Source: an uncultured Eubacteriales bacterium (lineage in GTDB: Bacteria; Bacillota; Clostridia; Lachnospirales; Lachnospiraceae). From it: 64,000 bases of DNA. Of this stretch, positions 12,201 through 36,620 are shown piece by piece. The position numbers and the translations under genes are program-made. Location of the stretch: assembly GCA_949294665.1 (NCBI GenBank), contig CASFID010000075.1:81410-145409 (forward strand), read 5' to 3'. The first letter of the stretch is position 1; each line of letters opens with the position of its first letter. Below the pieces are notes generated by a model, which saw only the letters and a program-made list of their open reading frames with translations, was not told the DNA's origin and did not search any database.

Positions 12201-13078
12201 GCAAAGGACTTAAGATGCCGCCGAAGGACTTACGGAAGCTGCAGATGATAGAACTGGAGATGATTCTGGAGGTAGACCGTATCTGCAGAAAGCATCAGAT
12301 ACGTTACTTTCTCAGCGAAGGAAGTCTGCTGGGAGCAGTACGACACGGGGGATTTATTCCATGGGACGATGATATAGATGTTTTTATGATGCGTGACGAA
12401 TATGAGCGTTTCTTAAAAATTTGTAAGACCGATCTGAACAGAAAGAAGTTCTTCATGCAGACGTATGAAACGGATCCTGAATACCGATGGTTTTACGGTA
12501 AGCTTCGGAGAAAAGGGACAGAATTTCTTCGTGCCGGGCAGGAAGCGATCCGGTGTATGTCAGGAGTATCTATTGATATCTTTGTCATGGATAATCAGCC
12601 TGATCACTATCTTACCTGGCTCTTTTTCACACTTCTAAGGCGTGGCTGTATTAAAACCCTCTGGTCTGTTGTGGGAGCTACGGAAGAAAGAATAAAGTGG
12701 AAAAGATGCCTTTATCGTTTACTGCGCCATATCAACAAAAGGATTCCTCTTGGAATCATGAATGGTATGCAGAAGATTACGAACCTCCGGCAGACAAGGG
12801 AAGTGTGCTGTATCGGATTTTACAGAAAAAGTCCCTGGAGCCGTAAACGGAAAAAGGGGGAACCGCGGGGATACTGCCGCAGCTGGTTTTCAGATACGAC
12901 GGAAATTGAGTTTGAAGGATTCCGGTTTCAGACATGTAAGGAATACAAAAAATATCTGCGCTGGGTATATGGCGACTATATGAAACTTCCGCCGGAAGAA
13001 GAGCGCTTTTCCCATGCACCGCGCAGATATCGACTGAACGTTGAGCCGGATCTGACAGGATCAGGGAGGACAGGATGA
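12197..13078 (+). CDS. LicD-family phosphotransferase, 293 aa
   Basis: LicD proteins transfer phosphocholine or similar groups from CDP-activated donors to glycans. The signature LGAVRHGGFIPWDDDIDVF (near residues 45-64) carries the metal-binding aspartates. The C-terminus ends with a basic tail after the SHAPRRY stretch. It overlaps the TagF-like gene by ATGA and the next gene by 4 bases, showing tight coupling. With the Fom1-like enzyme immediately downstream, transfer of a CMP-activated phosphonate is the favoured role, which is inference. Confidence 0.88.
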   Translation: MSKGLKMPPKDLRKLQMIELEMILEVDRICRKHQIRYFLSEGSLLGAVRHGGFIPWDDDIDVFMMRDEYERFLKICKTDLNRKKFFMQTYETDPEYRWFYGKLRRKGTEFLRAGQEAIRCMSGVSIDIFVMDNQPDHYLTWLFFTLLRRGCIKTLWSVVGATEERIKWKRCLYRLLRHINKRIPLGIMNGMQKITNLRQTREVCCIGFYRKSPWSRKRKKGEPRGYCRSWFSDTTEIEFEGFRFQTCKEYKKYLRWVYGDYMKLPPEEERFSHAPRRYRLNVEPDLTGSGRTG

Positions 13079-14352
13079 AAAAAGTATTTTTAAGTATAGG
13101 CGCCGATTTTATTCATGGCGGGCATATCGCGATCATAAAAAGAGCGGCGGAACTTGGAGAACTGACAGTCGGAGTTCTGACAGACGAAGCGATCATGTCC
13201 TACAGACCATATCCGATCCTTTCTTTTGAGGAACGTACGGAGATCATAAGGAATATCGCAGGGGTTTCCCGTGTGATACCTAAGACCAGTGTCAGTTATG
13301 AAGAGATCATAAAGACAGAGCGCCCGGACATCGTTGTTCACGGAGACGGATGGAAAGGAAAAGTAAGAGAACATCTTGTGGAGCTTCTGGATGAGTATGG
13401 CGGGGAGCTTGTGGAATTTCCCTATACGAATAAGACAGAATATCAGAGATATGAGCGGCACAGGGAAGCCATCCGTCATATGCCGGATATGAGACGCGGA
13501 ATGCTCCGGAGACTTCTGGGAGAGCTCAGACGCCCGGTGCGCGTCATGGAAGCCCACAACGGGCTTACAGGTCTGATCGTCGAGAAAACAAGAATCGAGG
13601 TTGGAGATGAGGTCAGGATGTTTGACGCCATGTGGGTGTCCTCTCTCTGTGATTCTACCTCAAAAGGGAAGCCGGATATTGAGCTTGTGGATATGACTTC
13701 CAGGATGAATACGATCAATGAGATCATAGAAGTTACGACAAAACCGATCATCCTGGATGCGGATACAGGCGGGCTGCCCGAACATTTTGAATACAATGTC
13801 AGAACCATTGAAAGACTTGGAGTCTCGGCAGTCATCATCGAAGACAAGATGGGACTGAAAAAGAACTCTCTGTTTGGGAATGAAGTCCAGCAGCAGCAGG
13901 CTCCCATCGAAGATTTCTGTGAAAAGATCAGGGCAGGGAAACGTGCGCAGCAGACAAGAGAGTTTATGATCATAGCAAGGATCGAAAGCCTGATCCTTGA
14001 ACAGGGGATGGACGATGCCATGAAAAGAGCGGACGCCTATGTAAAGGCGGGCGCGGACGGGATCATGATCCATTCAAGGAGCAGGACGCCCGATGAGGTG
14101 ACAGAATTCTGCGGCAGATTCCGAGAGCTATATCCGGATATCCCCATTATAGTTGTTCCTACTACATATCATACGATCCGCGAGCCAGAGCTCTATCAGG
14201 CGGGGGCCAATATAGTGATCTATGCAAACCATCTGATACGGAGCGCGTTTCCGGCTATGAAAGAGACAGCCGAACTGATCCTTACGACACAGAGAGGAAA
14301 GGAAGCGGATGAGAAGTGTATGCCGATCAAAGAGATCTTAACTTTGATCTGA
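13075..14352 (+). CDS. Fom1-like bifunctional cytidylyltransferase / PEP mutase, 425 aa
   Basis: Residues 1-140 form a nucleotidyltransferase of the TagD/cytidylyltransferase fold, with HGGH at 14-17 and a HGDGWKG motif. Residues about 150-425 are a PEP mutase (isocitrate lyase superfamily) with the signature EDKMGLKKNS beginning at E256 and DADTGGL upstream. PEP mutase forms phosphonopyruvate, the entry to C-P compounds. The same domain order is known in Fom1 of fosfomycin biosynthesis, where the N-domain makes CMP-2-hydroxyethylphosphonate (established). The decarboxylase and reductase needed for that route are in this module (27776, 18416). Confidence 0.88.
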   Translation: MKKVFLSIGADFIHGGHIAIIKRAAELGELTVGVLTDEAIMSYRPYPILSFEERTEIIRNIAGVSRVIPKTSVSYEEIIKTERPDIVVHGDGWKGKVREHLVELLDEYGGELVEFPYTNKTEYQRYERHREAIRHMPDMRRGMLRRLLGELRRPVRVMEAHNGLTGLIVEKTRIEVGDEVRMFDAMWVSSLCDSTSKGKPDIELVDMTSRMNTINEIIEVTTKPIILDADTGGLPEHFEYNVRTIERLGVSAVIIEDKMGLKKNSLFGNEVQQQQAPIEDFCEKIRAGKRAQQTREFMIIARIESLILEQGMDDAMKRADAYVKAGADGIMIHSRSRTPDEVTEFCGRFRELYPDIPIIVVPTTYHTIREPELYQAGANIVIYANHLIRSAFPAMKETAELILTTQRGKEADEKCMPIKEILTLI

Positions 14353-14398
14353 GATGCAAAAGTGAACGGACATGCAGAAAGCGGTGAAGGGCTCAGGT

Positions 14399-15103
14399 AT
14401 GAAAGCACTGATTTTAAATTCCGGCATGGGGAGCAGGATGGGAAGTCTGACGGAAGACGCGCCCAAGTGTATGACGGAGATATCGGCCGGGGAGACCATT
14501 CTGAAAAGACAGCTTCTCCTTCTTACAGAAAGCGGGATCAGAGATGTAGTTATCACTACGGGGCGGCATAAGGATAAACTGACGGAATACTGCCGTTCTC
14601 TGGATCTTCCTGTCGATTATACGTTCGTCCATAATCCGGAATATAAAGATACAAATTATATCTATTCGATCTATCTGGCAAAGGATATGCTCAGGAATAC
14701 AGACATTCTCCTGATGCATGGTGACCTGGTCTTTGATTTCAACGTCCTGTCAGGTATTATCCGGCAGGCACAGAGCAGTGTAGTCGTCAGTTCAGTCAGA
14801 CCACTGCCGGAAAAAGATTTTAAAGCAGTTATAAAAGACGGGTACGTTCAGAAGATCGGTGTTGAATTTTTTGAAAACGCAGTGGCCGCCCAGGCGCTTT
14901 ATCATCTTTATGCCAGAGACTGGGAGATCTGGCTGGAACGGATCGAAGCATACTGCCAGGACGGAAAGCGCAGCGTATATGCAGAAAACGCGTTAAACGA
15001 GGTGACGGCTGTGTGCCGCATCCGTCCGTTTGATGTAAAAGATGCGCTGTGCGATGAGATTGATACACCAGAAGACTTGAGGAAAATACAGGAAAGAGTT
15101 TAA
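14399..15103 (+). CDS. LicC/PntC-like nucleotidyltransferase, 234 aa
   Basis: This is a GT-A-fold NTP transferase with the glycine-rich loop LNSGMGSRMG (residues 6-15), the conserved DAPKCM lysine segment, and HGDLVFD as the metal-binding region. Close relatives activate phosphocholine or 2-aminoethylphosphonate with CTP. The start at 14399 has GAAGGG 7 bases upstream, better than the in-frame ATG at 14372. The gene follows the Fom1-like gene by 46 bases. Two cytidylyltransferase-type activities in a row suggest either two different phosphonate or phospho-alcohol donors, or redundancy. Confidence 0.8.
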   Translation: MKALILNSGMGSRMGSLTEDAPKCMTEISAGETILKRQLLLLTESGIRDVVITTGRHKDKLTEYCRSLDLPVDYTFVHNPEYKDTNYIYSIYLAKDMLRNTDILLMHGDLVFDFNVLSGIIRQAQSSVVVSSVRPLPEKDFKAVIKDGYVQKIGVEFFENAVAAQALYHLYARDWEIWLERIEAYCQDGKRSVYAENALNEVTAVCRIRPFDVKDALCDEIDTPEDLRKIQERV

Positions 15104-15118
15104 AGGAGACTGCTTAAG

Positions 15119-16168
15119 ATGGGATATTATGAAAAACTTATTAAACTTGATAAGGTTTATGAGGCGTTAAAAGACGATGAGTCAAAAGAATTATTTCGCT
15201 TAAGAGTAGACTATATGATTACCCGGGACGCCGACGCCTTTCACCGGGGCAAAGATTTACTGTACAATGACTGGCGCTGCGATGAATTGGAAGAATTTAT
15301 TCAGGATAAGAAGTTCAAAGGTTTTGTAATATGCGGACAGGGATATGACAGAGATACGTGTCGTTTACTGAAAATACTCGGGTATGAAGTCCTTTATCAT
15401 TGCGATGTGCTCGGAAGGGAGAATGTGTCGGAAGATATACCCGCAGTCGGCGTTCAGGAACTGACGGAAGATTTCCATGGGTATATCTTTGTAATGGCTG
15501 AAAAGTTTGAAAGAGAAAAAGTTTACAGTACATTATTATCCGCAGGAATTTCTAAAGAATGTATTTTATTACCCCGCTGTAAGCGTTTGATGGGAACAAG
15601 GGGAAAACAGTACTTTGACGTGTTTAGTCCCGTAGAAAACGAGATATTCGTCGATGCCGGAGCCTATGATGGAAGCACGACGCTCCAATTTGCAAAATGG
15701 ACGAATAATCAATATAAAAAGGCTTATGTGCTGGAGCCGTTGAGCGACATGCGCAGTGCTATAGAGCAAAAAATAAAAGATGCTGATCTTCAGAATATAT
15801 CCGTGCTGGAAAAAGCGGCCTGGAATAAAGAAGAAATTTTATATTTTAAAGAAAACGACAGTGGTTCTAAGATATCAAAAGACGGAGCGTTCGCCATAAA
15901 CAGTGCGGATATTGACAGTATTACAGGAGACGAGGCCGTCACATTTATCAAAATGGATATCGAAGGCAGTGAATTAAAGGCGCTTGAAGGAGCGAAAGAG
16001 ACAATTCTCAGAAATACCCCCAGGCTCGCCATATGTATTTACCATAAGCCGGAGGATATACTTGAAATACCGCTCTACTTATTGGAGTTGATTCCGGAAT
16101 ATAAATTCTACATCAGACATTATTGTTCTAACATGTTTGAGACAGTGCTGTATGCGGTACGGCGATAA
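15119..16168 (+). CDS. FkbM-family methyltransferase, 349 aa
   Basis: This is a SAM-dependent methyltransferase of the FkbM family. The C-terminal half has the SAM-binding DAGAYDGSTT (about 180-189), EPLSDM and the acidic KMDIEGSE motif (about 278-285). The N-terminal 150 residues look like a Rossmann-like accessory domain (FVICGQGYDRDT) seen in sugar-cluster FkbM proteins. AAAGGAGACTGCTTAAG precedes ATG. O-methylation of a flagellin sugar is the likely role. It continues the tight module 1 operon. Confidence 0.88.
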   Translation: MGYYEKLIKLDKVYEALKDDESKELFRLRVDYMITRDADAFHRGKDLLYNDWRCDELEEFIQDKKFKGFVICGQGYDRDTCRLLKILGYEVLYHCDVLGRENVSEDIPAVGVQELTEDFHGYIFVMAEKFEREKVYSTLLSAGISKECILLPRCKRLMGTRGKQYFDVFSPVENEIFVDAGAYDGSTTLQFAKWTNNQYKKAYVLEPLSDMRSAIEQKIKDADLQNISVLEKAAWNKEEILYFKENDSGSKISKDGAFAINSADIDSITGDEAVTFIKMDIEGSELKALEGAKETILRNTPRLAICIYHKPEDILEIPLYLLELIPEYKFYIRHYCSNMFETVLYAVRR

Positions 16169-16192
16169 GATATGAAAGAAGGAAAATCTGAG

Positions 16193-17323
16193 ATGAAAAC
16201 ATTGGTCACCCGGTCTTCCATGCCGCCTTTTGAAGAATACGTTGCAATGATAAAGCCGCTCTGGGAATCTGTCTGGCTTACAAATAACGGCGCTTTACAT
16301 AAACAGTTTGAAGAAGAATTAAAGAACTATCTGGGAGTTACGGGACTTTCTCTGATGACAAACGGGCATATGGCTCTGGAGCTGGCTTTACAGGCTCTGG
16401 GAGTAGCCGGCCCGGATGAGGACGGGGAAGTTATTACGACGCCTTTCACTTTCGCCTCCACTACACACGCTATTGTCCGTAACCGTCTGAAACCGGTATT
16501 CTGCGATATCCGTCGTGACAATTATACGATTGATGCATCAAAAATAGAGAATCTTATTACCAGGAAAACAAAAGCAATTCTTGCGGTTCATGTATATGGA
16601 TCTCCATGTGACGTATATAAAATAGAAGAAATTGCTCAAAAATATAATCTGAAAGTGATCTATGACGCGGCGCATGCTTTTGGCGTTCGGATAAAATGCG
16701 GGACAAAGGAATCAGGTATTGCACAGTTTGGAGACGCGTCCATGCTTAGTTTTCACGCCACAAAAGTCTTTCACACAATTGAAGGAGGCGCTGTGGCCTT
16801 TTCAGATACTCAGACAGGGGATAAGCTTTATCGGTTGAAGAATTTCGGAATTATGTCAGAGACAGAAGTTGATTATGTAGGGGCAAATGCAAAGATGGAT
16901 GAGTTTCGTGCGGCTATGGGACTCTGCAATTTACAATATATTGACCGGGAAATTAAAAAGAGAAAGGCAAAAACAGAAAGATATCGGATGAATCTTAAAG
17001 AAGTAAAAGGTATCACTCTGCTTCCCGAACAGAAAGGAGTAATCCCCAATTACGCATACTTTCCTGTTTTAATTGAGGATGATTTTCCTGCCACAAGAGA
17101 TGAAATTTATGCAGAATTAAAGGACAGAAACATATTTGCAAGACGCTATTTTTATCCGTTGACAACCAGATACTCCTGTTATAAAGGGAAATTTGACAGC
17201 TTTCCAACACCGGTAGCAGAGGAAATCGCAAGAAAGGTTCTCTGTCTGCCGCTGTTTGCCGATCTGTCAGGAGAGACGATAGATACCGTTTGTAAAATTG
17301 TGGACGCCAGGAGGTTTCAATGA
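16193..17323 (+). CDS. DegT/DnrJ-family sugar aminotransferase, VioA-like, 376 aa
   Basis: This is a PLP-dependent nucleotide-sugar aminotransferase. The pyridoxal lysine is K191 in SFHATKVFHTIEGG, and DAAHAFG carries the Asp/His that contact PLP. The N-terminal stretch SSMPPFEEYVAMIKPLW with the WLTNNG motif resembles VioA/RffA enzymes acting on dTDP-4-keto-6-deoxyglucose. RfbA/RfbB at 2.7-4.7 kb would supply that substrate, giving dTDP-4-amino-4,6-dideoxyglucose. The start at 16193 has AAGGA 9 bases upstream, and the in-frame ATG at 16172 has none. It overlaps the next gene by ATGA. Confidence 0.85.
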   Translation: MKTLVTRSSMPPFEEYVAMIKPLWESVWLTNNGALHKQFEEELKNYLGVTGLSLMTNGHMALELALQALGVAGPDEDGEVITTPFTFASTTHAIVRNRLKPVFCDIRRDNYTIDASKIENLITRKTKAILAVHVYGSPCDVYKIEEIAQKYNLKVIYDAAHAFGVRIKCGTKESGIAQFGDASMLSFHATKVFHTIEGGAVAFSDTQTGDKLYRLKNFGIMSETEVDYVGANAKMDEFRAAMGLCNLQYIDREIKKRKAKTERYRMNLKEVKGITLLPEQKGVIPNYAYFPVLIEDDFPATRDEIYAELKDRNIFARRYFYPLTTRYSCYKGKFDSFPTPVAEEIARKVLCLPLFADLSGETIDTVCKIVDARRFQ

Positions 17324-18402
17324 TCAGTGTAGTTGTATTTTTCTATAATGGTGAACAGTTTGTCGAGCAATGTATGGCAAACATTGTAAATCAGACGATC
17401 GGTATTGAAAATATAGAGGTTGTGGCCGTTGACGACGCATCGACAGACTCCACCGCGCAGCAGTTGGAAATCTGGGAAGAAAAATATCCCGGGAAGATAA
17501 AAGTGATACGAAAAAAGATAAACTCACAAAAAGCAAAAGATTCTAACCGGTTGTGCGGCATAGAGGCGGCAACCGGGGACTATATTCTATTTCTGGATCA
17601 AGATGATTATTATGAACCCGATGCATTTGAGATTTTGGCCGGACTGATCAAGGAGCATCCCGATCTCGACTATATCGAATATTCGTTCAATTACACCGAT
17701 CTCGACGGCAACGTGTTTTATGAACAGAGGATGTCGGAACCGGGATTTCACATATATACAATTGACACGGAAGAGGAAAGAATCGCATATACGCAGAAAA
17801 ATATCCTTCCGGGGGCAACGTTTACCTGGACAAAAATATACAGGAAAAATTTTTTGACAGAGAACAGAATACGAGACAATGCCGGGGATGAAAAGACAAA
17901 ATTTACAGATAATTATTTCTCCGGATTACTGGCCCTTTATTGTAAAAGAATAGGGAAATATAACAAACCTCTGTACAATTACAGGAACTATATAGGAAGT
18001 GATTCTCACTCTTCCCATAAAAATGACGAAAAACAGTTTGAAAGATGTAAAGTGGCGATAGCTTTCCAAAATGAATGTATACGGCGCGGGATTATGAAAG
18101 ATCAGTTCATTATGATTGAATATTTGTTTGCAAGGGCTTTTCTGATGAAGACGTTCTGGCGTTTTCTCTTCCTGTTCGATCCCATACCTTATGAAAAACT
18201 CAGATATATTCAGAATTATATATTCAAAGAATATCCGAATATAAAAGAAAACCCGATTATGAAGAATATTCCGTGGTTTCAGGAGTTGTTTCAATTTCTG
18301 GACAAACCCTGGACAGATGAGTGTATAAATCAGATTTATAAGTCAAAAAAGCAAAAGTACGAGGAGAAAGGAACTTCTTTTAATATCTTTCTTGGAAGAT
18401 AA
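17320..18402 (+). CDS. GT2 glycosyltransferase, 360 aa
   Basis: This is a family-2 glycosyltransferase without TPRs. The N-terminus is SVVVFFYNGEQFVEQCM, followed by VDDASTDST and the DxD-type LDQDDYY near residue 93. The C-terminal half is aromatic and basic (MKTFWRFLFLF), possibly peripheral to the membrane. AGGAGGTTTCA precedes the ATG that overlaps the aminotransferase stop. It may add the dTDP-4-amino-4,6-dideoxyglucose derivative, since it is coupled to the enzyme that makes it. This is inference. Confidence 0.88.
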   Translation: MISVVVFFYNGEQFVEQCMANIVNQTIGIENIEVVAVDDASTDSTAQQLEIWEEKYPGKIKVIRKKINSQKAKDSNRLCGIEAATGDYILFLDQDDYYEPDAFEILAGLIKEHPDLDYIEYSFNYTDLDGNVFYEQRMSEPGFHIYTIDTEEERIAYTQKNILPGATFTWTKIYRKNFLTENRIRDNAGDEKTKFTDNYFSGLLALYCKRIGKYNKPLYNYRNYIGSDSHSSHKNDEKQFERCKVAIAFQNECIRRGIMKDQFIMIEYLFARAFLMKTFWRFLFLFDPIPYEKLRYIQNYIFKEYPNIKENPIMKNIPWFQELFQFLDKPWTDECINQIYKSKKQKYEEKGTSFNIFLGR

Positions 18403-18415
18403 TGTATTGGGAAAT

Positions 18416-20725
18416 ATGGAAAAGAACACAGAATATTTTGAAGATATGAAATCATTTCTTCATACGATAAAAAAAGAAAAGCATAAGCTGTTTGTTGTAT
18501 GCAGGCAGTCCTTTCTGCGGATGGAATCGGGGAAAAACATAGAACGGGCAAATCTGAAACCTGTATATTTTCATGATTTTTCGCCGAATCCGACGTACGA
18601 ATCTGTAAAAGCGGGGGTAGACAGATTCAGAAAAAACGGATGTGAAGCAATCCTGGCTATTGGGGGCGGAAGCGCGATAGATGTGGCAAAAGCGGTAAAA
18701 GCCTTTGCCGCAATGAAAGAGACTGCAAACTATCTGGATCAGGAAATATCAGACAATGGTATTCCGCTGTACGCCGTACCTACAACAGCAGGAAGCGGAA
18801 GCGAGGCGACAAAGTTTGCAGTTATTTATTATCATGGGAAAAAGCAGTCGCTTACTCATCCGTCTCTGATTCCTGAGAAAGTGCTGTTGGAGCCGTCGGT
18901 ATTAAAGAGTCTTCCTCTTTATCAGCGCAAAGCTACTATGATGGATGCATTGTGCCATGCAGTTGAAGCGTTCTGGTCCGTGAATTCCACACAGGAGAGC
19001 CGGGAATATTCCCGGGACGCTCTCGCTGCAGTTATGAAAAACAGGACGGCCTATCTGGAGAATACTGACGATGGAAATCGAGGAATGCTGTACGCCGCAA
19101 ATATGGCAGGCAGAGCTATCAATATTGCACAGACGACAGCCGCGCATGCAATGAGCTATCAATTAACCTCCCGGTATCATCTGCTTCATGGGAATGCGGT
19201 GGCAATCTGTCTTCCATATCTTTGGATGTTTATGCTGGATCACCCGGAACGCTGCTCGGACGCTCGCGGCCAGAAGTATCTCGCAGGGATTTTCTCTGAT
19301 ATCGCCCGGGCTTTAGGCTGTCGGACGCCCCGGGAAGCAGCCTGTATGCTCTGGACATGGATCAGAGAGTTGAATCTGGAAATTCCCGTCGTACCGGAAA
19401 ACGAGATTAAAGATCTGGCGGTATGTGTGAATCCTGACAGACTGAAAAACAATCCGGCTATACTGAAGCAGACGGACATAGAGATAATCTACCGTCAGCT
19501 ATTTAAGGAGGAGGGGATCGATATTACTACACAGATATGTCAGAAGAAACTTTTGATACTGGGGGGGGCGAATGCCCAGACTCCTGCGATTATCAGAGCT
19601 AAGGAACTTGGATATTATGTAATAACATGCGATTATCTTCCAGATAATCCGGGACATAGATTTTCTGATAAATATGTCAACATCAGTACCATTGAAAAAG
19701 AAAAAGTATTAAAGCTGGCGGAAAAGGAGAACATTCAGGGAATTATCGCATATGCTTCCGATCCCTCGGCTATGACGGCGGCGTATGTAAGTGATAAAAT
19801 GAATTTGCCGGGCCCTTCTTATTCATCTGTCAGATTATTAAGCGAGAAAGATTTGTTTCGGGAATTTCAACGAAAATACGGATTTTACATCCCTGATTTC
19901 TTCAGCTTTGATAATCTGGAACAATTGCAAAAAGAAATCGAAAATATAAAATTCCCCTGTATGGTCAAACCTGTTGACTCTTCGGGAAGCAAGGGCATCA
20001 CCAGAGTATGCAGAAAGGAAGAACTGCTGTCTGCTCTGGAACTGGCTTTGGAGTACAGTCGCCGTAAAAGAGTTATTGTCGAAGAATTTATCGAATCTCC
20101 TTATCATCAACTACATGGAGATGGAATCGTATATAACGGAAAGCTGATATTTCTTGCTCTTGGAGATCAGCGTTTCTGGCATTCTGTTCCGATCGGGAGT
20201 TCTTTACCTTCTTCAATTGCAGAAGAACTTATGACTGAGGCAAAGAGTGAAGTCGCCAGACTCATTGAGTGCAGCGGCTACCGTATGGGAGGGATCAATG
20301 TAGAGGTAAGAATAACAAAAGACGGTAAGATCTGTATTGTGGAAATCGGCCCCAGGACAGGGGGGAATTATATCCCTCAGCTGATGGAACTGGCTACCGG
20401 AGAAGATGAGATGACTTCCGTACTCAAAATGGCTATGGGAGATTTTCGCCGGTCAGATATTACGCCGCATATATCATATTGCTTTCAATATATTATTGGC
20501 AGCTATAAAAAAGGAAAATTCAAAACTATTTTTGTGGACGATTATATTAAACCTAAGCTTGTTAAGTTATATGTGCACAAAAAAGAAGGAGAATATATAG
20601 ACGAATATGAAAACAGCAGCGGAGTCGCAGGAGTCGCACTTCTGAAGTTTGACGGGCTGGAAGAAATGGAAAAAGATATAAAAAATATCAGGGAACATAT
20701 AACTGTTCTGACAGAAGAGGTATAG
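18416..20725 (+). CDS. phosphonoacetaldehyde reductase-like Fe-dehydrogenase fused to ATP-grasp ligase, 769 aa
   Basis: The N-terminal domain (about 1-370) is an iron-dependent alcohol dehydrogenase: GGGSAIDVAK at about 83, TTAGSGSEAT, and the metal ligands in DALCHAVEAF, AHAMSYQLTSRYHLLHGNAV. This subtype includes reductases of phosphonoacetaldehyde to 2-hydroxyethylphosphonate. The C-terminal domain (about 376-769) is an ATP-grasp enzyme with a Rossmann-like start (LLILGGANAQT), MVKPVDSSGSKG as the ATP loop, VEEFIES, and the Mg-binding EIGPRTGGNY. Such a fusion is not one I know. The start is uncertain: a TTG at 18392 overlaps the previous gene, while the ATG at 18416 has only a weak ribosome site. 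Confidence 0.85.
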   Translation: MEKNTEYFEDMKSFLHTIKKEKHKLFVVCRQSFLRMESGKNIERANLKPVYFHDFSPNPTYESVKAGVDRFRKNGCEAILAIGGGSAIDVAKAVKAFAAMKETANYLDQEISDNGIPLYAVPTTAGSGSEATKFAVIYYHGKKQSLTHPSLIPEKVLLEPSVLKSLPLYQRKATMMDALCHAVEAFWSVNSTQESREYSRDALAAVMKNRTAYLENTDDGNRGMLYAANMAGRAINIAQTTAAHAMSYQLTSRYHLLHGNAVAICLPYLWMFMLDHPERCSDARGQKYLAGIFSDIARALGCRTPREAACMLWTWIRELNLEIPVVPENEIKDLAVCVNPDRLKNNPAILKQTDIEIIYRQLFKEEGIDITTQICQKKLLILGGANAQTPAIIRAKELGYYVITCDYLPDNPGHRFSDKYVNISTIEKEKVLKLAEKENIQGIIAYASDPSAMTAAYVSDKMNLPGPSYSSVRLLSEKDLFREFQRKYGFYIPDFFSFDNLEQLQKEIENIKFPCMVKPVDSSGSKGITRVCRKEELLSALELALEYSRRKRVIVEEFIESPYHQLHGDGIVYNGKLIFLALGDQRFWHSVPIGSSLPSSIAEELMTEAKSEVARLIECSGYRMGGINVEVRITKDGKICIVEIGPRTGGNYIPQLMELATGEDEMTSVLKMAMGDFRRSDITPHISYCFQYIIGSYKKGKFKTIFVDDYIKPKLVKLYVHKKEGEYIDEYENSSGVAGVALLKFDGLEEMEKDIKNIREHITVLTEEV

Positions 20726-20727
20726 CA

Positions 20728-21924
20728 ATGAAGAAGGATAAATCGATACTGTTAATTTTTGCATCGCTGATTGTGAGTATATTGATCGGAGTTTTACTGC
20801 AGAATAATTCAGATGCCGCCGAAATTGTACGTCCGTTGGGCACAATTTACATAAATCTGATCAAGATGATAATGCTTCCGTTAGTAGTAACTTCTCTTGT
20901 GCTGGGAATTTCTAGTATTTCCAGCGTTAATAAAATAGGAAAGATGGGCTTGGCGACAATGATCATTTTCATGTCTACAACTGCGTTTGCAGTTATTATT
21001 GGCCTGATACTTTCTAATATTTTTAAACCGGGAAATGGCATTGCAGTCGGAAACGCTACATATGAAGCAGAAGAAATGCCCGGTCTTCTGGATACGTTTA
21101 TCGGTATTTTTCCCGATAACATATCACGCGCTTTTTTAGACGCAGATATGCTGCAGATTATTTTCATATCTGTTATCCTTGGCATTGGTATGGTAAAAAT
21201 CGCACCGAAAGGAAATGTGTTACGAGGACTGATTGAGGATATTTTTGAGGTAACAACTGTAATAACGAAATGGATTATGAATTTAACGCCAATAGGGATT
21301 TTAGGTTTGATGATACCTACTGTCGCTCAAAACGGGATTGCCGTTTTGCTGCCGCTCGGGAAATTGATCGCAGTTTTTTATTTAGCCGTTATTGTGCATG
21401 TTGGAATTACATATTGTACATTGATAAAAACAGGGACTGAATTTTCTGTCAGACAATTTTTTACAAGTTTTTTCCCAGCGCAGGTGGTAGGATTTGTTAC
21501 ATGCAGTTCAGCGGCGACTCTTCCCGTATCTCTGGAAAGTCTGCAAAATAAACTGAAAGTATCCAGAGAAGTGAGCGGCTTTGTCCTTCCTCTGGGAGCG
21601 ACGATTAATATGGACGGCAATGCGTTATATCAGGGGATTGTCGCATTATTTGTAGCTCAGGCATATGGAATCGAACTGAGCATTACTACCCAGTGTATGG
21701 TGATTTTAACAGGAACGTTAGCGTCTGTCGGAGCGGCAGGCGTTCCCGGCGCGGGTATGATCGTACTTAGTACTGTGCTTGTTTCCGCAGGATTACCTGT
21801 AGACGGGATTGCGCTTGTGGCCGGAATTGACAGGATTCTTGATATGGGACGTACCATGGTAAATATAACTGGGGATGCGGTTACTGCATGTATGGTTGAA
21901 AAAATAATGAAAACCTCAAAATGA
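20728..21924 (+). CDS. dicarboxylate/amino acid:cation symporter (DAACS), 398 aa
   Basis: This is a membrane symporter of the GltP/GltT/SstT family taking up acidic or neutral amino acids with Na+ or H+. Hydrophobic helices run through the protein, and the family signature GATINMDGNALYQG (near 290) and the GVPGAGMIVLS hairpin segment are present. It starts 2 bases after the ATP-grasp fusion, so the two are translationally linked. An amino-acid importer inside a glycosylation operon, directly after an ATP-grasp ligase, suggests it supplies an amino acid for that ligase. This is inference. Confidence 0.9.
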   Translation: MKKDKSILLIFASLIVSILIGVLLQNNSDAAEIVRPLGTIYINLIKMIMLPLVVTSLVLGISSISSVNKIGKMGLATMIIFMSTTAFAVIIGLILSNIFKPGNGIAVGNATYEAEEMPGLLDTFIGIFPDNISRAFLDADMLQIIFISVILGIGMVKIAPKGNVLRGLIEDIFEVTTVITKWIMNLTPIGILGLMIPTVAQNGIAVLLPLGKLIAVFYLAVIVHVGITYCTLIKTGTEFSVRQFFTSFFPAQVVGFVTCSSAATLPVSLESLQNKLKVSREVSGFVLPLGATINMDGNALYQGIVALFVAQAYGIELSITTQCMVILTGTLASVGAAGVPGAGMIVLSTVLVSAGLPVDGIALVAGIDRILDMGRTMVNITGDAVTACMVEKIMKTSK

Positions 21925-21951
21925 TCGACAACGACGGACACGGGGGAAAAC

Positions 21952-22773
21952 ATGAATAAAGTAGTATACATGGGATATTCAGACTCTATGATAAGATGTC
22001 TGCTGGATTCGGATTTATTTGATTTGATCATGGTCATTGGAAAAGAAGGACGAATGAACAAAAATCAATATCAAATGATAGAAGAAAATCATATTCCATA
22101 TTATGAACTTATAAATAAAGAAGAACTGGAAAAAATAAAATTTCCTAATGAAGAGTTTACTGTAATCCTGCGCAAATTTGAATATATTATTCCGCAGTCG
22201 ATGATAAAAAAATTCAGGTTTATTAATTTTCACGGCGGAAGCTTAAAATACAACAGAGGAGCACATGCGCCGGTATGGTCGATTCTGAATCGGGATAAGG
22301 CCTCGTGTCTGTCAATGTATGAGCTGACGGGCGGCGTTGACGAAGGAATATTGATCGACGAATATCCTGTAGAAATCACAGAAGAGGACGACATAAACAC
22401 ATTGAATGTGAAATTAGAATCAGGTATTCCGAAATTACTGGTATCTCTTGACAGTTACTTAAGTGGAAATATAAAAGGAATTTCTGTAAAAAATGGGATT
22501 TATCATCCCAAAATTCAGGAAAAAGATTTTACTATTGATATTGAGAATGACAGTGTGAAAGTAATTTCTGCAAAGATCCGGTCGCAACGTAATTATTATG
22601 GCGCCTTAATACTGGAAAATGGACTGCGCTACAGAGTGGAAGACTTTACCCTTTTTCCCAGTACGGGATACAAGCGGCGTTTTTTTGACGGGGAAATACT
22701 TATTGTAGATGATGGGCAGGAATTTATCAGATGTAATGTACGAAGCGAGAAAATATTCGGGGGGGAGAAATAA
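21952..22773 (+). CDS. sugar N-formyltransferase (Fmt-like fold), 273 aa
   Basis: This is an N10-formyltetrahydrofolate-dependent transferase related to methionyl-tRNA formyltransferase. The catalytic triad is visible as N92 and H94 in NFHGGSLKYNRGAHAP and D130 in GGVDEGIL. Its size and distance from the fmt housekeeping context point to a sugar enzyme such as VioF/FdtF, which formylate 4-amino-4,6-dideoxyglucose. The VioA-like enzyme in the same operon fits that use. GGGGGAAAAC precedes ATG. Confidence 0.82.
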   Translation: MNKVVYMGYSDSMIRCLLDSDLFDLIMVIGKEGRMNKNQYQMIEENHIPYYELINKEELEKIKFPNEEFTVILRKFEYIIPQSMIKKFRFINFHGGSLKYNRGAHAPVWSILNRDKASCLSMYELTGGVDEGILIDEYPVEITEEDDINTLNVKLESGIPKLLVSLDSYLSGNIKGISVKNGIYHPKIQEKDFTIDIENDSVKVISAKIRSQRNYYGALILENGLRYRVEDFTLFPSTGYKRRFFDGEILIVDDGQEFIRCNVRSEKIFGGEK

Positions 22774-22784
22774 ATCTCTTTCCA

Positions 22785-23273
22785 ATGTTCCGGAAAGGTA
22801 TGACCATTGAACCGAAAAGAAAAACAAAAGAAGTGCGTAAATTACTTTATGAATTTCGCCCCAGCCTGTTTCACTCTCTGATTTCAGACAATAAAGTAGA
22901 AGAAATGGCAGACAAATATTCTGAAAAAGCTGTTATTCTTCTTTTACGTATGCATGAAATTAATGCGGGAATTATCGTTATGTATGCGAATGATATAAGA
23001 TTAAAAAAAGCATTTGTTTCTATAATTACTGTAAAAAAGGAATTCAGAAAAAAGGCGCTGGGAACAGTCCTTCTAAAACGGGCTGAGAACATTGCGTATA
23101 TGTGGGGGATGGAATATATGGATCTTGAAGTTGACAAAGCGAATGACGTGGCCATTGATTTTTATTTAAGAAACGGATACGTCAAGAGTGAAGAACTTGA
23201 CGCATCTTTTATCATGCAGAAAGAATTGTGCGGAAATATTAATATGTATACAGACCGACAAGAGTGGCTCTAA
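22785..23273 (+). CDS. GNAT-family acetyltransferase, 162 aa
   Basis: This is a GCN5-type N-acyltransferase with the acetyl-CoA loop region VKKEFRKKALGTVLL and the following DLEVDKANDVAIDFYLRNG pattern. Either ATG 22785 or 22800 may be the start, the latter having GGAAAGG only 2 bases upstream. Together with the formyltransferase it gives a second way of acylating an amino sugar. The substrate is unknown. Confidence 0.78.
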   Translation: MFRKGMTIEPKRKTKEVRKLLYEFRPSLFHSLISDNKVEEMADKYSEKAVILLLRMHEINAGIIVMYANDIRLKKAFVSIITVKKEFRKKALGTVLLKRAENIAYMWGMEYMDLEVDKANDVAIDFYLRNGYVKSEELDASFIMQKELCGNINMYTDRQEWL

Positions 23274-23305
23274 ACGTACGTAATATTATTAAGGGGGACA
23301 GAAGA

Positions 23306-24616
23306 ATGAAAATATTAGTTACAGGATTATGTACACTGCACTGGGGACGACTGGAATATGGAAATATTGGAAATTACTATATTATAGAGCCTTTGTTCCG
23401 TGAACTTCACCGTGTCTTTCCGGACTCCGAGATCAATACGACTTTTCAAATGACAGAAGGGTTTGCCAAAAGAGAAAATATAACGGTTCTGCCCATGGAA
23501 CTATACTATGCATGGCAGGAAAACGATATTGAAAACGCTCAAAAAGATTATGCTGCAGCTAAGGAACTGATTGCAGATCCACATTCCCATGCTGCAACTC
23601 CTTATACGGATCTTCTGAAGGAGACGTCTGTCGTAATTAATATGTCGGGGGACATGTGGGGAGATAACGCCGAGCATGTAGGACACGGACGATTTTTTGT
23701 TGATTTGCTTAAGATGCGTACAGCTCAGCTCCTTGGGGTGAAGACGGTTCTCTTTGGCGTAACTCCGGGTCCATTTTCTGATTCAAAAACAATGGATCTG
23801 GCAAAAGAAGTATATGAAAATTTTGATTTAATCATAAACAGGGAGCCTACTTCAACAAAAAACCTGAATAAATGGGGATTTCATTCTGCACACGTAAAGG
23901 ATTTCGCCTGTCCTGCATTTTTATATACTCCTGAGCTGACCGAAGTACAATCGGCAGAGGCAGAGTCGGTTATCTCATCCCTGCAGGGAGAGAAAAAGGT
24001 AGTTGGCTTTACAATAGGCGGATTCAATATGCCGGTCGGTCCATATGATATGTGGCCCCGGGAAGACAGCCAGTATAAAGTATTTGCAGAGATAATCGAG
24101 TATATGATGAATAACCTTAATGTAAAAGTGGCGCTTATTTCACATACAAATGGTTTTGAACTGCCTCCACAGTTTAAGCTGATACCCGGCAGAGATTATC
24201 CTATTTTAGACCAACTGAGAAAGGTAGTGCTCAAAAGGGGAATTGTCAAGAATCCGGAAGATTTAGTCTGTATTTCCACACCGCATCTTCCGTGCGTTAC
24301 AAAAACGATCATCGGCCATTTTGACATGATGGTAACCGGGCGTGTACATGCGTCGGTTGCGGCTGTCAGTCAGTTCGTTCCTACAGTTTTTCTCACATAT
24401 GAGGAAAGCTTTATACCGAGTTCTAAAATGTACGGCTTCGCCAATTTGGCAGGCATGGGAGAATTTGTGTGCCGTCCGTCCGACGGGGATGAAATTAAAC
24501 GTAAGATACATGAAGTATTTTCGAGACTTCCAGAGATAAAAAGCCGCTTACAGAGCCGTATTCCGGAGGTACAAAAGCTTTCTGCCGCTGCATTTGACGA
24601 GCTTAAAAATATATAG
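23306..24616 (+). CDS. polysaccharide pyruvyl transferase family protein, 436 aa
   Basis: This is a GT-B-like protein of the polysaccharide pyruvyl transferase family, which adds pyruvate ketals from PEP to sugars or acts as a related glycan enzyme. Landmarks are NIGNYYIIEPLF near the N-terminus, GVTPGPF, and the C-terminal TGRVHASVAAVSQFVPTVF, typical of the family. AAGGGGG lies 8 bases before ATG 23306. An upstream in-frame ATG (23264) sits in the preceding gene's end and is not used. It ends with TAG, showing that TAG works as a normal stop here. Confidence 0.85.
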   Translation: MKILVTGLCTLHWGRLEYGNIGNYYIIEPLFRELHRVFPDSEINTTFQMTEGFAKRENITVLPMELYYAWQENDIENAQKDYAAAKELIADPHSHAATPYTDLLKETSVVINMSGDMWGDNAEHVGHGRFFVDLLKMRTAQLLGVKTVLFGVTPGPFSDSKTMDLAKEVYENFDLIINREPTSTKNLNKWGFHSAHVKDFACPAFLYTPELTEVQSAEAESVISSLQGEKKVVGFTIGGFNMPVGPYDMWPREDSQYKVFAEIIEYMMNNLNVKVALISHTNGFELPPQFKLIPGRDYPILDQLRKVVLKRGIVKNPEDLVCISTPHLPCVTKTIIGHFDMMVTGRVHASVAAVSQFVPTVFLTYEESFIPSSKMYGFANLAGMGEFVCRPSDGDEIKRKIHEVFSRLPEIKSRLQSRIPEVQKLSAAAFDELKNI

Positions 24617-24648
24617 ACAGTAAATTTTAAAGAAGGAGAATGAATTTT

Positions 24649-25356
24649 ATGAAAGTTGCGATTATGCAACCGTATTTTTTCCCTTATATAGGATATTTTT
24701 CTTTAGTCAAGCATGTCGACCGTTTTGTTTTACTGGATGACGTACAGTTTATTCGTCATGGCTGGATTGAAAGAAACAGGATTCTGAAACCGTCCGGAGG
24801 ATGGCAGTACATTTCTGTTCCTCTTATAAAGCACAGTCAGAAAGTTCCCATTAAAGATATCCGGATCAATAACGATACTGCATGGGGGAAAAAGCTTATC
24901 GCTCAGATAGGACATTACCGGAAAGCGCCTTATTACTATAAAGTGAAATCTTTGTTAGAAAAAATACTGGAGCGGACTTTTTATGATATCACTTCTCTGG
25001 ACCGCGTTTGCCTGGAAAACATATGCGGGTATTTACATATACATACTCCTATAGATTTGTTTTCAGAAATGGGACTTTCGATTCCATATCCGAAAGCGCC
25101 GGATGAATGGGCGCTGAATATTTGCCGTGAGATGGGCGGCGTAACTGAATACAGGAATCTGCCGAGAGGAACGGCTCTGTTTTCTGAGGAAAAGTTTCTT
25201 AACGCAGAGATTAAACTACGCTTTCAGGAAACTGCTATTTCAGAATATCCCCAACTTGGAAATGTGTTTGAGCCCGGATTGTCAATCCTTGATGTAATGA
25301 TGTTTAATTCCGTAGAAGAAATAAACCAGATGCTGGACAGGTACATGTTATTATGA
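24649..25356 (+). CDS. WbqC-family protein, 235 aa
   Basis: It has the characteristic WbqC N-terminus MKVAIMQPYFFPYIGYFSL, then DRFVLLDDVQFIRHGWIERN and a C-terminal NSVEEINQML. WbqC-like proteins occur in O-antigen and flagellar glycan clusters together with acyl- and aminotransferases. Their chemistry is not settled. The second ATG (24649) is chosen because AGGAG is only one base from the first. It overlaps the next gene by ATGA. Confidence 0.88.
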   Translation: MKVAIMQPYFFPYIGYFSLVKHVDRFVLLDDVQFIRHGWIERNRILKPSGGWQYISVPLIKHSQKVPIKDIRINNDTAWGKKLIAQIGHYRKAPYYYKVKSLLEKILERTFYDITSLDRVCLENICGYLHIHTPIDLFSEMGLSIPYPKAPDEWALNICREMGGVTEYRNLPRGTALFSEEKFLNAEIKLRFQETAISEYPQLGNVFEPGLSILDVMMFNSVEEINQMLDRYMLL

Positions 25357-25799
25357 ATGAGATAAAAACAGAGCATATAATACCGCCGTCAGATACAATC
25401 AGGCTGTTTACTTTTTTAAAAGAATCAGATAGTATATTTCAGCCGAAATTATCTGAAAGAGTAAATATTAAACAATACTCCGAAAAGCTGGCAGAGCGTG
25501 CTGAATTATTTTATGTATTGGACGGCGGAAAGGACATCGCCAACTGTGCTGTTTATATGAATCGAGATGACATATGCTTTATATCATCTTTTGCCGTGGC
25601 TCAAAATATGCAAAGAAACGGAATTGGAACAAGATTAATGAGGGCCGTGATCAGTGAGGGGATAAAAAGGAACAAGAGCTCAATTGAATTAGACGTTTAC
25701 GCCTGCAATCAGGCGGGGATACGTTTTTATCTTTCTCAGGGATTTCAGAAGAAAGCAGAAAAGGAGAAATGGTTGAGAATGTCTCTTGACTTAAAATAA
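25353..25799 (+). CDS. GNAT-family acetyltransferase, 148 aa
   Basis: This is a short GNAT protein: FAVAQNMQRNGIGTRLM is the acetyl-CoA-binding motif A, followed by DVYACNQAGIRFYLSQGF. It is translationally coupled to the WbqC-like gene by a 4-base overlap. It probably acylates an amino sugar of the module 1 glycan. The substrate is not readable. Confidence 0.82.
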   Translation: MNEIKTEHIIPPSDTIRLFTFLKESDSIFQPKLSERVNIKQYSEKLAERAELFYVLDGGKDIANCAVYMNRDDICFISSFAVAQNMQRNGIGTRLMRAVISEGIKRNKSSIELDVYACNQAGIRFYLSQGFQKKAEKEKWLRMSLDLK

Positions 25800-25858
25800 A
25801 ACAATATGCCCCAATTGTAAATAATGCAGTCTCAACAAATCAGGAAGGAAAAAATACT

Positions 25859-26665
25859 ATGAATGCAGAAATCAATTTAGCCAGAACAACATTTTGTATA
25901 ACGCAGCGCTGTACGCTGAAGTGCAAATTGTGCCTGGCTTTTATCCCCTATTATAAAAACCCCGTGGATGTAAAGACGGGAGAGGCTGATGCGGTTCTCA
26001 GGGAGTATTTTGAGCTGATTCATTCGGTAAGTGTATTTACCATAACAGGAGGAGAACCTCTAATGCATAAGGAACTGTCGTCCATTTTGGAACTTGTGTA
26101 CAGCTATTTACCGCAGATTAGAAAGAGCGTAGATTTTGTGACAAACGGTACGCTCGATATACCGGAACATGTACTGGATATTTTTGAGGAGAACAGAGCG
26201 CATACAAGAATTGTACTTAGTGATTACGGCCCTTCTCTCTCTACTAAAATAAAGCAAATTGAAGAAAAATTAAAGAAAAGAAATATTTCGTACAGAATAT
26301 CAAATTTTCATGGCGATAATCTGTATTTTGACGGGTGGATTGATTTCAGGGATCATTCAAAAAAATATTTTTCTCTTGAAGAACGCGACAGGCACGGTCA
26401 GAAATGCATTCACAATGTAGGCAAATATTTTTTGATTAACGAGGGGGAGCTGCACTCTTGTTCTCGCTCTTATTGGCGAATGCGCGAAGGATATATACCC
26501 AGAAATGAGGAGGAATATATTCCTTTGTTAGATACACACATGCCCAAGGAAAGGAAGCAGGAGATATTACTACATATGCTGAATCAGAAAAGCAGCTCAT
26601 CGTGTGCATAGTGTGTCGGATTAAAAAATGGGGTGCCAAGGCACTATCCAGCGGAACAACTTTAA
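25859..26665 (+). pseudogene. radical SAM/SPASM-like protein interrupted by in-frame TAG
   Basis: The radical SAM cluster ligands are C18, C22 and C25 (RCTLKCKLC), followed by TITGGEPLMH and VTNGT. A C-terminal cysteine region (KCIHNVGKYF, HSCSRSYW) looks like an auxiliary-cluster domain. The frame stops at TAG 26609-26611. Reading on without a shift gives 17 more residues (CVGLKNGVPRHYPAEQL) and then TAA. A C-A-x-C pair and a PAEQL tail are the normal ending of this group, so TAG replaces one residue between two conserved cysteines. The gene is either inactivated or read through. The RBS is AGGAAGG. Confidence 0.78.
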
Positions 26666-26934: not shown

Positions 26935-26957
26935 ATAGCGAAAGGATCGTGATAAAT

Positions 26958-27413: not shown

Positions 27414-27775
27414 CCCGCAAAAAGTAACAGCAGCGTCGCCAATATTATTTAGATAATGACTAAAAATAAAAATCGAAAAGAACTGACTATAGTAAAAAGA
27501 ATAGCCAGTTCTAACAGGCAGGAGTTCCCGACGGATTAGTTTTTCTATATCAGGAGGAACTCCTCCTTTTATTGAAAGAAAGTGACGACAAATGTGAACG
27601 GCCCGTCGACAAAATATATTGTTGAAATAGAAAGTGTAGAGTTAAAATGTATAGAATATTACGAGATAGGGTACTTGTACTTCTTATTCTGTTGATATAA
27701 AATATAGATGGCAAAATCTGTGACATAAGCAAAACACGGTTTACTTATCAGGATTTATTTACAGGAGATCAAGAT
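27414..27775 (+). other. upstream region of aepY: overlapping hairpins and possible promoter
   Basis: There is no gene in 362 bases. A 12-base stem with one mismatch lies at 27479-27512. AGGAGTTCC (27520-27528) can pair with GGAACTCCT (27556-27564), or alternatively AGGAGG (27552-27557) with CCTCCT (27562-27567) followed by TTT. The last two structures exclude each other. TTGTTG (27619-27624) and TAAAAT (27643-27648), 18 bases apart, may be the promoter for the decarboxylase gene. Confidence 0.4.
27619..27648 (+). promoter_or_regulatory. possible SigA promoter for phosphonopyruvate decarboxylase gene
   Basis: TTGTTG and TAAAAT are separated by 18 bases, 128 bases upstream of the gene. The match is modest, but the gene is otherwise cut off from the module 1 operon by the toxin-antitoxin remnant and would need its own promoter. 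Confidence 0.3.
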
Positions 27776-28894
27776 ATGGATGTTAAAAGCTTTGTGAAAA
27801 TTTTAGGAGCAAAATTTTATACCGGAGTTCCGGACTCTCTTCTGAGACCTTTGTGCGATTACCTGATGAATACATACGGGATTTCTGAAAATCATATTGT
27901 GGCTGCAAATGAAGGGAACTGTACCGCGCTGGCAGCAGGACATTACCTTGCCACGGGAGAAGTTCCGCTTGTCTATATGCAGAACAGCGGCCTTGGAAAC
28001 ATGCTCAATCCTGCGGTTTCTCTACTGCACAAAAAAGTATATGCTATTCCCTGTATTTTTGTAGTGGGGTGGCGAGGAGAACCGGGAGTACATGACGAGC
28101 CTCAGCACATATATCAGGGGGAGGTCACGGTAAAACTTCTGGAGGACATGGGGATCAGATCTTTTATCATTTCCGTTGATACGACAGAAAATGAACTGGA
28201 AGAAATGATGGAAGCGTCAAAACCTTTTCTGGCTGATGGAAACAGTGTGGCCTTTGTGGTCCGTAAAGGCGCTCTGACTTATGAAGATAAACTGCATTAT
28301 AAGAATCCCTACCCGATGACAAGAGAATCCATCATCGAGTGTATCACAGAAGTTTCAGGAAATGACATTATCATTTCGACGACAGGAAAAGCCAGCAGAG
28401 AGCTTTTTGAGATCAGGGAACATAAAGATCAGGGACATGGGAGAGATTTCCTGACTGTAGGCTCTATGGGGCACAGCAGTTCCATCGCACTTGGAGTCGC
28501 CCTTGCGAAACCCGAGAAAAAAATATGGTGCATAGACGGAGACGGCGCGACTCTGATGCATATGGGGGCAATGGCTGTTATCGGAAGTCGGAAACCTTCC
28601 AACCTGATCCATATTGTCATCAATAATGAGGCGCATGAGACAGTGGGAGGAATCCCGACAGTTGCAAAGTCGGCAGCGCTCGCGGATATCGCGGCGGCAT
28701 GCGGATACCCCAGAACGGAAACAGTAACGGAAAAAGAGGAACTCGAAAAAGCGCTGCACAGTGCAAGAGAAAACGGCGAACTGACCTTTATTGAAGTGAA
28801 AGCGGCGATCGGGGCCAGATCCGATCTTGGCAGGCCCACCACAACGACAGAGGAAAACCGGCGGAGCTTTATGGAATATATACGGGAGAATTGA
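27776..28894 (+). CDS. aepY: phosphonopyruvate decarboxylase, TPP-dependent, 372 aa
   Basis: It converts phosphonopyruvate to phosphonoacetaldehyde, the irreversible step that drives PEP mutase forward. The N-terminal Pyr domain has FYTGVPDSLL and AANEGNCTALAAGHYLATG with the catalytic glutamate. The C-terminal PP domain has the TPP-binding motif GDGATLMHMGAMAVIG (about 254-269) ending in NNEAHETVGG. The length is canonical. ACAGGAGATCAAGAT precedes ATG. It is the last gene of module 1, far from the Fom1-like and reductase genes but on the same strand. Fom2 of fosfomycin synthesis is the named equivalent. Confidence 0.94.
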   Translation: MDVKSFVKILGAKFYTGVPDSLLRPLCDYLMNTYGISENHIVAANEGNCTALAAGHYLATGEVPLVYMQNSGLGNMLNPAVSLLHKKVYAIPCIFVVGWRGEPGVHDEPQHIYQGEVTVKLLEDMGIRSFIISVDTTENELEEMMEASKPFLADGNSVAFVVRKGALTYEDKLHYKNPYPMTRESIIECITEVSGNDIIISTTGKASRELFEIREHKDQGHGRDFLTVGSMGHSSSIALGVALAKPEKKIWCIDGDGATLMHMGAMAVIGSRKPSNLIHIVINNEAHETVGGIPTVAKSAALADIAAACGYPRTETVTEKEELEKALHSARENGELTFIEVKAAIGARSDLGRPTTTTEENRRSFMEYIREN

Positions 28895-34590: not shown

Positions 34591-34592
34591 AT

Positions 34593-35534: not shown

Positions 35535-35546
35535 TATTCGTCCTCC

Positions 35547-36533: not shown

Positions 36534-36620
36534 TAGATTCTCCTTATTCCATTTTCTCACAGATTACTTTTCTCTAAAGCTCCTTTTCAGTATAGTGAGC
36601 ATCAGCAAGGAATCCTGATT

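Follow-up and report, generated by a model that had tools for sequence, protein, structure and literature searches.

The early steps of the fosfomycin pathway are those of Fom1, Fom2 and FomC, and the glycosylation of flagellin with nonulosonates is likewise a known system. Elements of both are found in the stretch of DNA analysed here, a window of 64,000 nucleotides from an uncultured Eubacteriales bacterium of the family Lachnospiraceae (assembly GCA_949294665.1, contig CASFID010000075.1, positions 81,410 to 145,409 of the forward strand), in which two gene clusters containing a phosphoenolpyruvate (PEP) mutase (PepM), cluster A on the plus strand and cluster B on the minus strand, each stand behind a flagellin gene. 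This arrangement suggests that the flagella of the bacterium are decorated with phosphonates of its own making.

A phosphonate on flagellin is already known. 2-Aminoethylphosphonate (2-AEP, or AEP) was shown by mass spectrometry on the type A glycan of Clostridioides difficile FliC, according to the excerpts of the 2022 report on which we draw (PMC8861647), and the statement of the first-pass annotation of the window that no phosphonate-decorated flagellin had been described does not hold. In the same excerpts C. difficile is reported to be pepM-negative, for which reason the source of its AEP is left open. The window would resemble that case in that a Gram-positive anaerobe of the gut carries a phosphonate on the glycan of its flagellin, as predicted here from the genes, and differs from it in the compound (AEP there, predicted 2-hydroxyethylphosphonate, HEP, here) and in that the synthesis genes here adjoin flagellin. 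The other close relative is the Pnt pathway with PntC (PMC6697681, also drawn on in part), where, as in the window, PepM is fused to a PF01467 or PF12804 domain and is accompanied by a LicC-like enzyme, LicD and glycosyltransferases; the enzymes there prefer AEP, whereas here His or Tyr replaces Glu104. The string 'flagell' is absent from the main text of that paper. As far as the portions at hand go, phosphonate moieties on flagellin glycans are mentioned in a 2025 review (PMC12645811), and phosphonates on surface glycoproteins have been proposed in marine work (PMC8931226). No description of a flagellin-linked phosphonate synthesis cluster was found in search listings of open-access PMC text and, as far as searched, the novelty lies in the linkage of phosphonate synthesis cassettes to flagellin, not in the flagellin phosphonate itself.

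Cluster A consists of the following genes (genomes used for comparison are denoted by G numbers):

6817..7668, plus strand: flagellin A, head of the cluster (PF00669 158 bits, PF00700 103 bits; the copy in G439 is 97% identical and in the same place)
7796..9139, plus strand: GT2-TPR glycosyltransferase 1 (PF00535 60 bits, and TPR; ATG chosen within the listed TTG frame from 7619)
9185..10558, plus strand: GT2-TPR glycosyltransferase 2 (PF00535 77 bits; SunS family 96 bits, cut-off 350)
10575..12200, plus strand: TagF-like protein (PF04464 marginal, 21.5 bits, cut-off 22.1)
12197..13078, plus strand: LicD-family phosphotransferase (PF04991 140 bits)
13075..14352, plus strand: Fom1-like fusion of a cytidylyltransferase (CyT) with PEP mutase (CTP_transf_like PF01467 51 bits; TIGR02320 410 bits, cut-off 319.6)
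14372..15103, plus strand: LicC/PntC-like cytidylyltransferase (top PDB match LicC 1jyk, 51 bits; Tde-PntC 6pd1 weaker, 30 bits)
15119..16168, plus strand: FkbM-family methyltransferase (PF05050 40 bits)
16172..17323, plus strand: DegT aminotransferase (PF01041 315 bits)
17320..18402, plus strand: GT2 glycosyltransferase (PF00535 101 bits)
18392..20725, plus strand: iron-type alcohol dehydrogenase (ADH) fused to an ATP-grasp domain (PF00465, PF25137, PF13535; TTG start; the start given in the first-pass annotation is an in-frame ATG at 18416)
20728..21924, plus strand: SDF symporter (PF00375 401 bits)
21952..26611, plus strand: further tailoring genes from profile matches (formyltransferase, two GNATs, pyruvyl transferase, WbqC, radical S-adenosylmethionine (SAM) protein)
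27776..28894, plus strand: phosphonopyruvate decarboxylase (TIGR03297 466 bits, cut-off 312.5)

The genes from 7796 to 26611 are all co-directional, with intergenic gaps of -11 to 59 bp, and are followed after 1,164 bp by the decarboxylase gene; flagellin A is the first gene of the cluster, which is preceded by FliD on the minus strand. The profiles confirm the earlier placement of a Fom1-like fusion, an iron-type ADH, a decarboxylase, LicD and a TagF-like protein (the last one marginally) on one strand downstream of flagellin, although cluster B and the separate LicC-like cytidylyltransferase at 14372 had been overlooked.

The reading that we favour, and that we consider reasonably probable as a whole, is that cluster A makes HEP, activates it with cytidine monophosphate (CMP) and attaches it to the glycan of the adjacent flagellin, cluster B being a second and different phosphonate cassette on the same scaffold. 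In the proposed mechanism, PepM (13075) would yield phosphonopyruvate, which the decarboxylase (27776) would convert to phosphonoacetaldehyde and the iron-type ADH (18392) to HEP; CMP-HEP would be formed by the LicC-like enzyme at 14372, by the fused CyT domain or by both, LicD (12197) would transfer the HEP phosphonate of CMP-HEP to a sugar, and the GT2-TPR enzymes would place the sugar on flagellin in the cytoplasm. A single decarboxylase might be shared by both clusters. Domains, gene order, co-occurrence and residue patterns are given by the sequence; from these we infer all the reactions, the sharing of the decarboxylase and the attachment to flagellin.

As for the individual enzymes, the 13075 product contains the PEP mutase motif EDKXXXXXNS as EDKMGLKKNS, and the best match of its N-terminal domain among solved structures is 5x3d (160 residues, labelled phosphoenolpyruvate phosphomutase; 125 bits, E 1.9e-35; runner-up 47 bits), which we take to be the CyT domain of Fom1. 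As to the structural comparison of this domain with Fom1 suggested earlier, with a model of the fusion (33 sequences, pLDDT 89) the top Foldseek matches were PEP mutases over the C-terminal domain and the N-terminal domain was not placed; by sequence, 5x3d was far ahead of other cytidylyltransferases. The 27776 product is the sole above-cut-off match to TIGR03297 genome-wide. In the ADH, proposed as the phosphonoacetaldehyde reductase, the metal ligands Asp185, His252 and His266 are present in 61/61 aligned rows (the window being counted twice), while His189 is found in 39 rows and Gln in 22. Among 60 ADH-like open reading frames (ORFs) above 200 bits, that of the window is the only one fused to ATP-grasp; L172 (L numbers denote the named loci introduced below) has a long C-terminal extension.

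The preferred candidate for the CMP-phosphonate transferase is LicD (12197). When its matches were ranked in the 58 genomes of the genus, the top four lay in islands with PepM and flagellin (692, 581, 193 and 188 bits), the next ones scoring 129 and 125.5 bits. The TagF-like protein at 10575 was set aside for this role because G427 and G416 have the flagellin-glycosyltransferase-glycosyltransferase-TagF scaffold without a PepM match (LacI, PTS and GH32 genes adjoin it there), so that TagF appears as part of a common flagellin scaffold.

With the early fosfomycin pathway, cluster A shares the CyT-PepM fusion, the decarboxylase and an ADH in place of a transaminase; the additional LicC, LicD and glycosyltransferases set it apart. 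These shared first steps would also fit a diffusible natural product, a phosphonate akin to fosfomycin, which we regard as highly improbable, as the cluster is surrounded by glycosyltransferases, LicD and flagellin, and a scan of 50 window proteins with Pfam, rather than with dedicated models of Fom3 or Fom4, gave no Fom3- or Fom4-like match (cupin epoxidase or B12-radical SAM). Within this scope, the late fosfomycin genes are missing, as the first-pass annotation had stated.

The identity of the phosphonate was addressed by comparing PepM neighbourhoods. PepM was found at E 1e-50 in 46 of the 397 genomes of a family search and in 4 of 58 genomes of the genus, this one included; the counts below refer to 52 PepM places of the family sample, from which G434 is left out by a 150-bit filter on PepM, and to 80 named loci, the best 80 of at least 582 in genome_contigs. 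Two of the latter, L156 and L163, may duplicate G283 and G313 and were kept. A class V transaminase and an ADH occur together at 1 of the 52 places, the transaminase only at 18, the ADH only at 19 and neither at 14 (p 2.4e-4); the same counts are 0, 7, 48 and 25 in the 80 loci (p 0.0011) and 0, 3, 33 and 11 in the 47 of these with longer flanks (p 0.022), the values for 'neither' being inflated because several regions are short contigs. The LicC-like enzyme goes with ADH (19 places with both, 2 and 1 with a single one, 30 with neither; 46, 11 and 2, and 21 in the 80 loci) and never with the transaminase (0 with both, 21 and 19 with a single one, 12 with neither; 0, 57 and 7, and 16 in the 80 loci).

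A residue pattern follows the same division. In the portions of the PntC paper used here, Glu104 and Glu196 of Tde-PntC are described as positioned to bond the amine of AEP, Spn-LicC having Asp there (PMC6697681). In the aligned column of Glu104, His is present in 65/65 LicC_A-type rows near ADH, and the 14372 product has His116; the transaminase rows (n = 20) have Glu in 14, Cys in 1 and Asn in 1, with 4 unresolved, and the LicC_A-type rows with neither enzyme have His in 13, Ser in 2 and Glu in 1. G392, where transaminase and ADH are both present, has Glu. Tyr stands in this column in the cluster B fusion and in G434, so that at this contact neither 14372 nor the cluster B fusion carries the Glu of an AEP-specific PntC. 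The counts given are those of the aligned column; a pattern-based count leaves more rows unresolved (8/20 among the Spn-like transaminase rows) and shows Ala for 2 ADH-type rows.

The fused CyT domains also differ, with a median score to 5x3d of 122.9 bits in the HEP type (20 proteins) and 96.3 bits in the AEP type (18 proteins); the HEP-type list was set by hand and includes G089 (LicC-like, no ADH seen), and the cluster B protein of the window counts as 0 bits. Across the family regions, the PepM of transaminase clusters is slightly more similar to the window than that on the ADH side (65.6% vs 61.8% identity), while their CyT domain is less similar (38.5 vs 44.4%), and the 80 loci agree; kinship of PepM alone therefore does not explain the CyT split, behind which a separate history of the CyT domain may lie. 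The CyT-PepM fusion was rejected as a marker of HEP in itself, since transaminase clusters carry it too.

Could cluster A nevertheless make 2-AEP or another amino compound, with the DegT protein at 16172 as the transaminase? The operon does contain this aminotransferase, and in the parts of PMC6697681 considered here the tailoring of surfaces with AEP-like compounds is named as the main use of the phosphonate capacity of bacteria. DegT, however, scores best with sugar aminotransferases, though below their cut-offs, and probably has a sugar substrate; it has no match in the G439 region, where ADH is kept, and is thus unlikely as an AEP transaminase. Together with His in place of Glu at the amine contact and the lack of a PhnW match in the genome, this makes an amino product improbable. 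A whole-genome search at E 1e-10 gave no PhnW-type match in this genome (95.9% complete), in line with the earlier remark that no AEP transaminase is seen, while PhnW-type matches below the model cut-off lie close to PepM in G430, G157 and G135.

It should be noted that several points weigh against HEP. Sites without transaminase or ADH are frequent (14/52 and 25/80), and G392 has both; the two ADH-near rows outside the LicC_A type carry Asp in one case and Asn in the other in the Glu104 column, which covers one of the two amine contacts, and PntC specificity is described, in the portions used, as mainly steric (PMC6697681). Two AEP-type CyT domains reach 124 and 155 bits to 5x3d, matching the HEP type. 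The His column and the CyT split reflect few evolutionary events each and, as the rows are related, their counts are not independent. The completeness of 95.9% means that the absence of PhnW is not final. Lastly, the ADH scores 142 bits against TIGR03405, the only phosphonate-named ADH model, so far below its cut-off of 423.7 that its reductase activity is a proposal. We still consider HEP the likely product of cluster A, because of the transaminase/ADH split, the Fom1-like CyT domain, the change from Glu to His and the missing PhnW match; the HEP route of the first-pass annotation is retained on these grounds, and not on that of the CyT-PepM fusion.

The association with flagellin extends beyond this genome. 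In the family sample, own genome excluded, 6/48 PepM places have a flagellin-domain match no more than 20 kb away, where 1.4 would be expected (P about 0.002, with genome sizes rounded and contig ends ignored). Among the 80 best loci, flagellin lies up to about 10 kb upstream of PepM in four (L144, L150, L184, L220), a raw count without chance expectation. In 12 of the 14 flagellin-near cases, and in 8/10 outside the genus, flagellin is upstream on the same strand (orientation labels entered by hand). The flagellin-near sites include ADH-type cassettes (cluster A, G439, G188, G139, L144), transaminase-type cassettes (G135, G157, L220), a third type (cluster B, G434, G177) and sites with no assigned type (G315, L150, L184). 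L220 holds a near-complete AEP set beside flagellin, in the order flagellin, a 666-residue protein, adenosine phosphosulfate (APS) kinase, PntC-like protein, transaminase, CyT-PepM and, at the end of the stretch, a decarboxylase match; L150 has a related order and a fusion of radical SAM protein and cytidylyltransferase.

In both these loci (L150:4989-13896, L220:3570-11774), flagellin is followed by a protein of 664 or 666 residues and APS kinase, and then by the phosphonate genes. The two proteins are 55% identical to each other and have no Pfam match, with sulfotransferase-like motifs recognized by eye, and sulfation and phosphonylation together are possible in L150 and L220.

Within the genus, G439 has flagellin, the two glycosyltransferases, TagF, LicD, PepM, LicC and ADH in a row as in cluster A, the shared genes (flagellin to ADH, plus the decarboxylase) being 70-97% identical; no tblastn match to DegT or ATP-grasp was found in its region. 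In G434, flagellin is followed by the same scaffold with cluster B, together with a decarboxylase-like gene that cluster B of the window does not have. G430 has a transaminase-type cluster, with no flagellin match in its fetched stretch.

The phosphonate might instead end up on a different polymer of the cell surface, such as a capsule, a teichoic-like polymer or a lipid, flagellin proximity being due to chance or to an insertion hot spot. Such an explanation, which we judge unlikely but would take more seriously than the other alternatives, gains from the occurrence of the cassette away from flagellin: 47 of the 48 ADH-type loci among the 80, including Ruminococcus, Prevotella and Bacteroidales records, show no flagellin nearby (L144 is the only exception), and in the family sample 14 of the 45 genomes with PepM besides this one (e.g. 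G189) have no flagellin match at all. The phosphonate cassette is, then, not flagellin-specific. Against another polymer stand the recurrence and orientation of flagellin, the presence in a single genome of two cassettes, each at a flagellin of its own, and the lack of any flippase- or polymerase-like family in the Pfam scan of the 50 window proteins. In addition, the SDF symporter is the only ORF of at least 150 residues in the 64 kb with at least 7 hydropathy-predicted membrane segments, whereas at least one ORF with this many segments occurs in 30 of the 43 genome_contigs loci of at least 18 kb (a crude count).

Attachment to flagellin has its own weak points. The absence of export genes is weak evidence, as 11/41 long loci without flagellin likewise have no multi-membrane ORF, and such genes may be elsewhere in the genome; the orientation is absent in 2 of the 14 flagellin-near cases (G188 and G135); and the decarboxylase lies 1.2 kb outside the operon here and on the opposite strand in G439. 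The phosphonate-bearing flagellin glycan first proposed for this locus remains a proposal, which draws support from the recurrence and the orientation and from the absence of any export-type membrane protein in the window, and is tempered by the many flagellin-free places. The association is real and recurrent; its best reading is that flagellin islands have taken in phosphonate cassettes.

Cluster B, the second PepM cluster, runs on the opposite strand behind a truncated flagellin gene and contains a PepM-PntC fusion:

59459..60025, minus strand: flagellin B, without the N-terminal part (PF00700 104 bits; PF00669 covers profile positions 85-137 only)
57932..59335, minus strand: GT2-TPR glycosyltransferase 1 (PF00535 68 bits)
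56611..57984, minus strand: GT2-TPR glycosyltransferase 2 (85% identity to the cluster A counterpart)
54974..56593, minus strand: TagF-like protein (69% identity to the cluster A counterpart)
53389..54981, minus strand: PEP mutase fused to a PntC-like nucleoside triphosphate (NTP) transferase (TIGR02320 337-339 bits; PF12804 54 bits; PEP mutase 1m1b 358 bits)
49842..53392, minus strand: phosphoesterase, epimerase, NTP transferase and saccharopine-dehydrogenase-like gene, pathway step not assigned
49036..49872, minus strand: LicD (PF04991 130 bits)
33817..48879, minus strand: MptE-like protein (PF01973) and nonulosonate genes (LegC, NeuB and NeuC types over cut-off; PseF-like CMP-transferase below cut-off)

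The PEP mutase motif of the fusion is EDKKFPKTNS. The four-gene set at 49842..53392, whole or partial, adjoins PepM also in G177, G189, G052, G328, G434 and L215; its saccharopine-dehydrogenase-like gene has no useful PDB match (best E 0.035). The LegC-, NeuB- and NeuC-type genes behind flagellin B recall nonulosonate flagellin glycosylation, the difference being that a phosphonate cassette lies inside the same island here. Truncated flagellin B adjoins a gene at 60235-61347 whose translation looks, by eye, integrase-like, and the window ends at the end of the contig.

This neighbourhood, and the lack in cluster B of the decarboxylase-like gene of G434, would be in keeping with a partly decayed locus from which no phosphonate is made in this strain; we give this very little credence, considering that cluster A consists of open reading frames, of which those shared with G439 are 70-97% identical.

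More tentatively, and with rather less confidence than in the reading of the window itself, gut Clostridia may carry exchangeable flagellin-side phosphonate cassettes of three types, one for HEP, one for AEP and a third marked by genes of the phosphoesterase, epimerase, NTP transferase and saccharopine-dehydrogenase-like kinds (its CMP-transferase having, in cluster B, Tyr for Glu), whose product would be an undescribed phosphonate; two such cassettes would be present in this genome, each on its own copy of a single flagellin scaffold. Loci in which PepM, an activating enzyme, LicD and flagellin come together give genetic access to flagellar phosphonates, with the Glu/His pattern as a predictor of the compound made at each. 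Flagellin is a main immune target in the gut, and a stable carbon-phosphorus coat on it would therefore be of interest for motility and host sensing.

Some minor features of the window may be added. Thiolase halves and a 3-hydroxyacyl-CoA dehydrogenase lie among the nonulosonate genes of cluster B (40901-43506). Between the two clusters, on the minus strand (29097-33134), there are two proteins with citrate-lyase-ligase domains and N-terminal parts of no known type, and the short ORFs at 26960-27400, in the gap that separates the decarboxylase from the radical SAM gene, have by eye the look of a toxin-antitoxin remnant.

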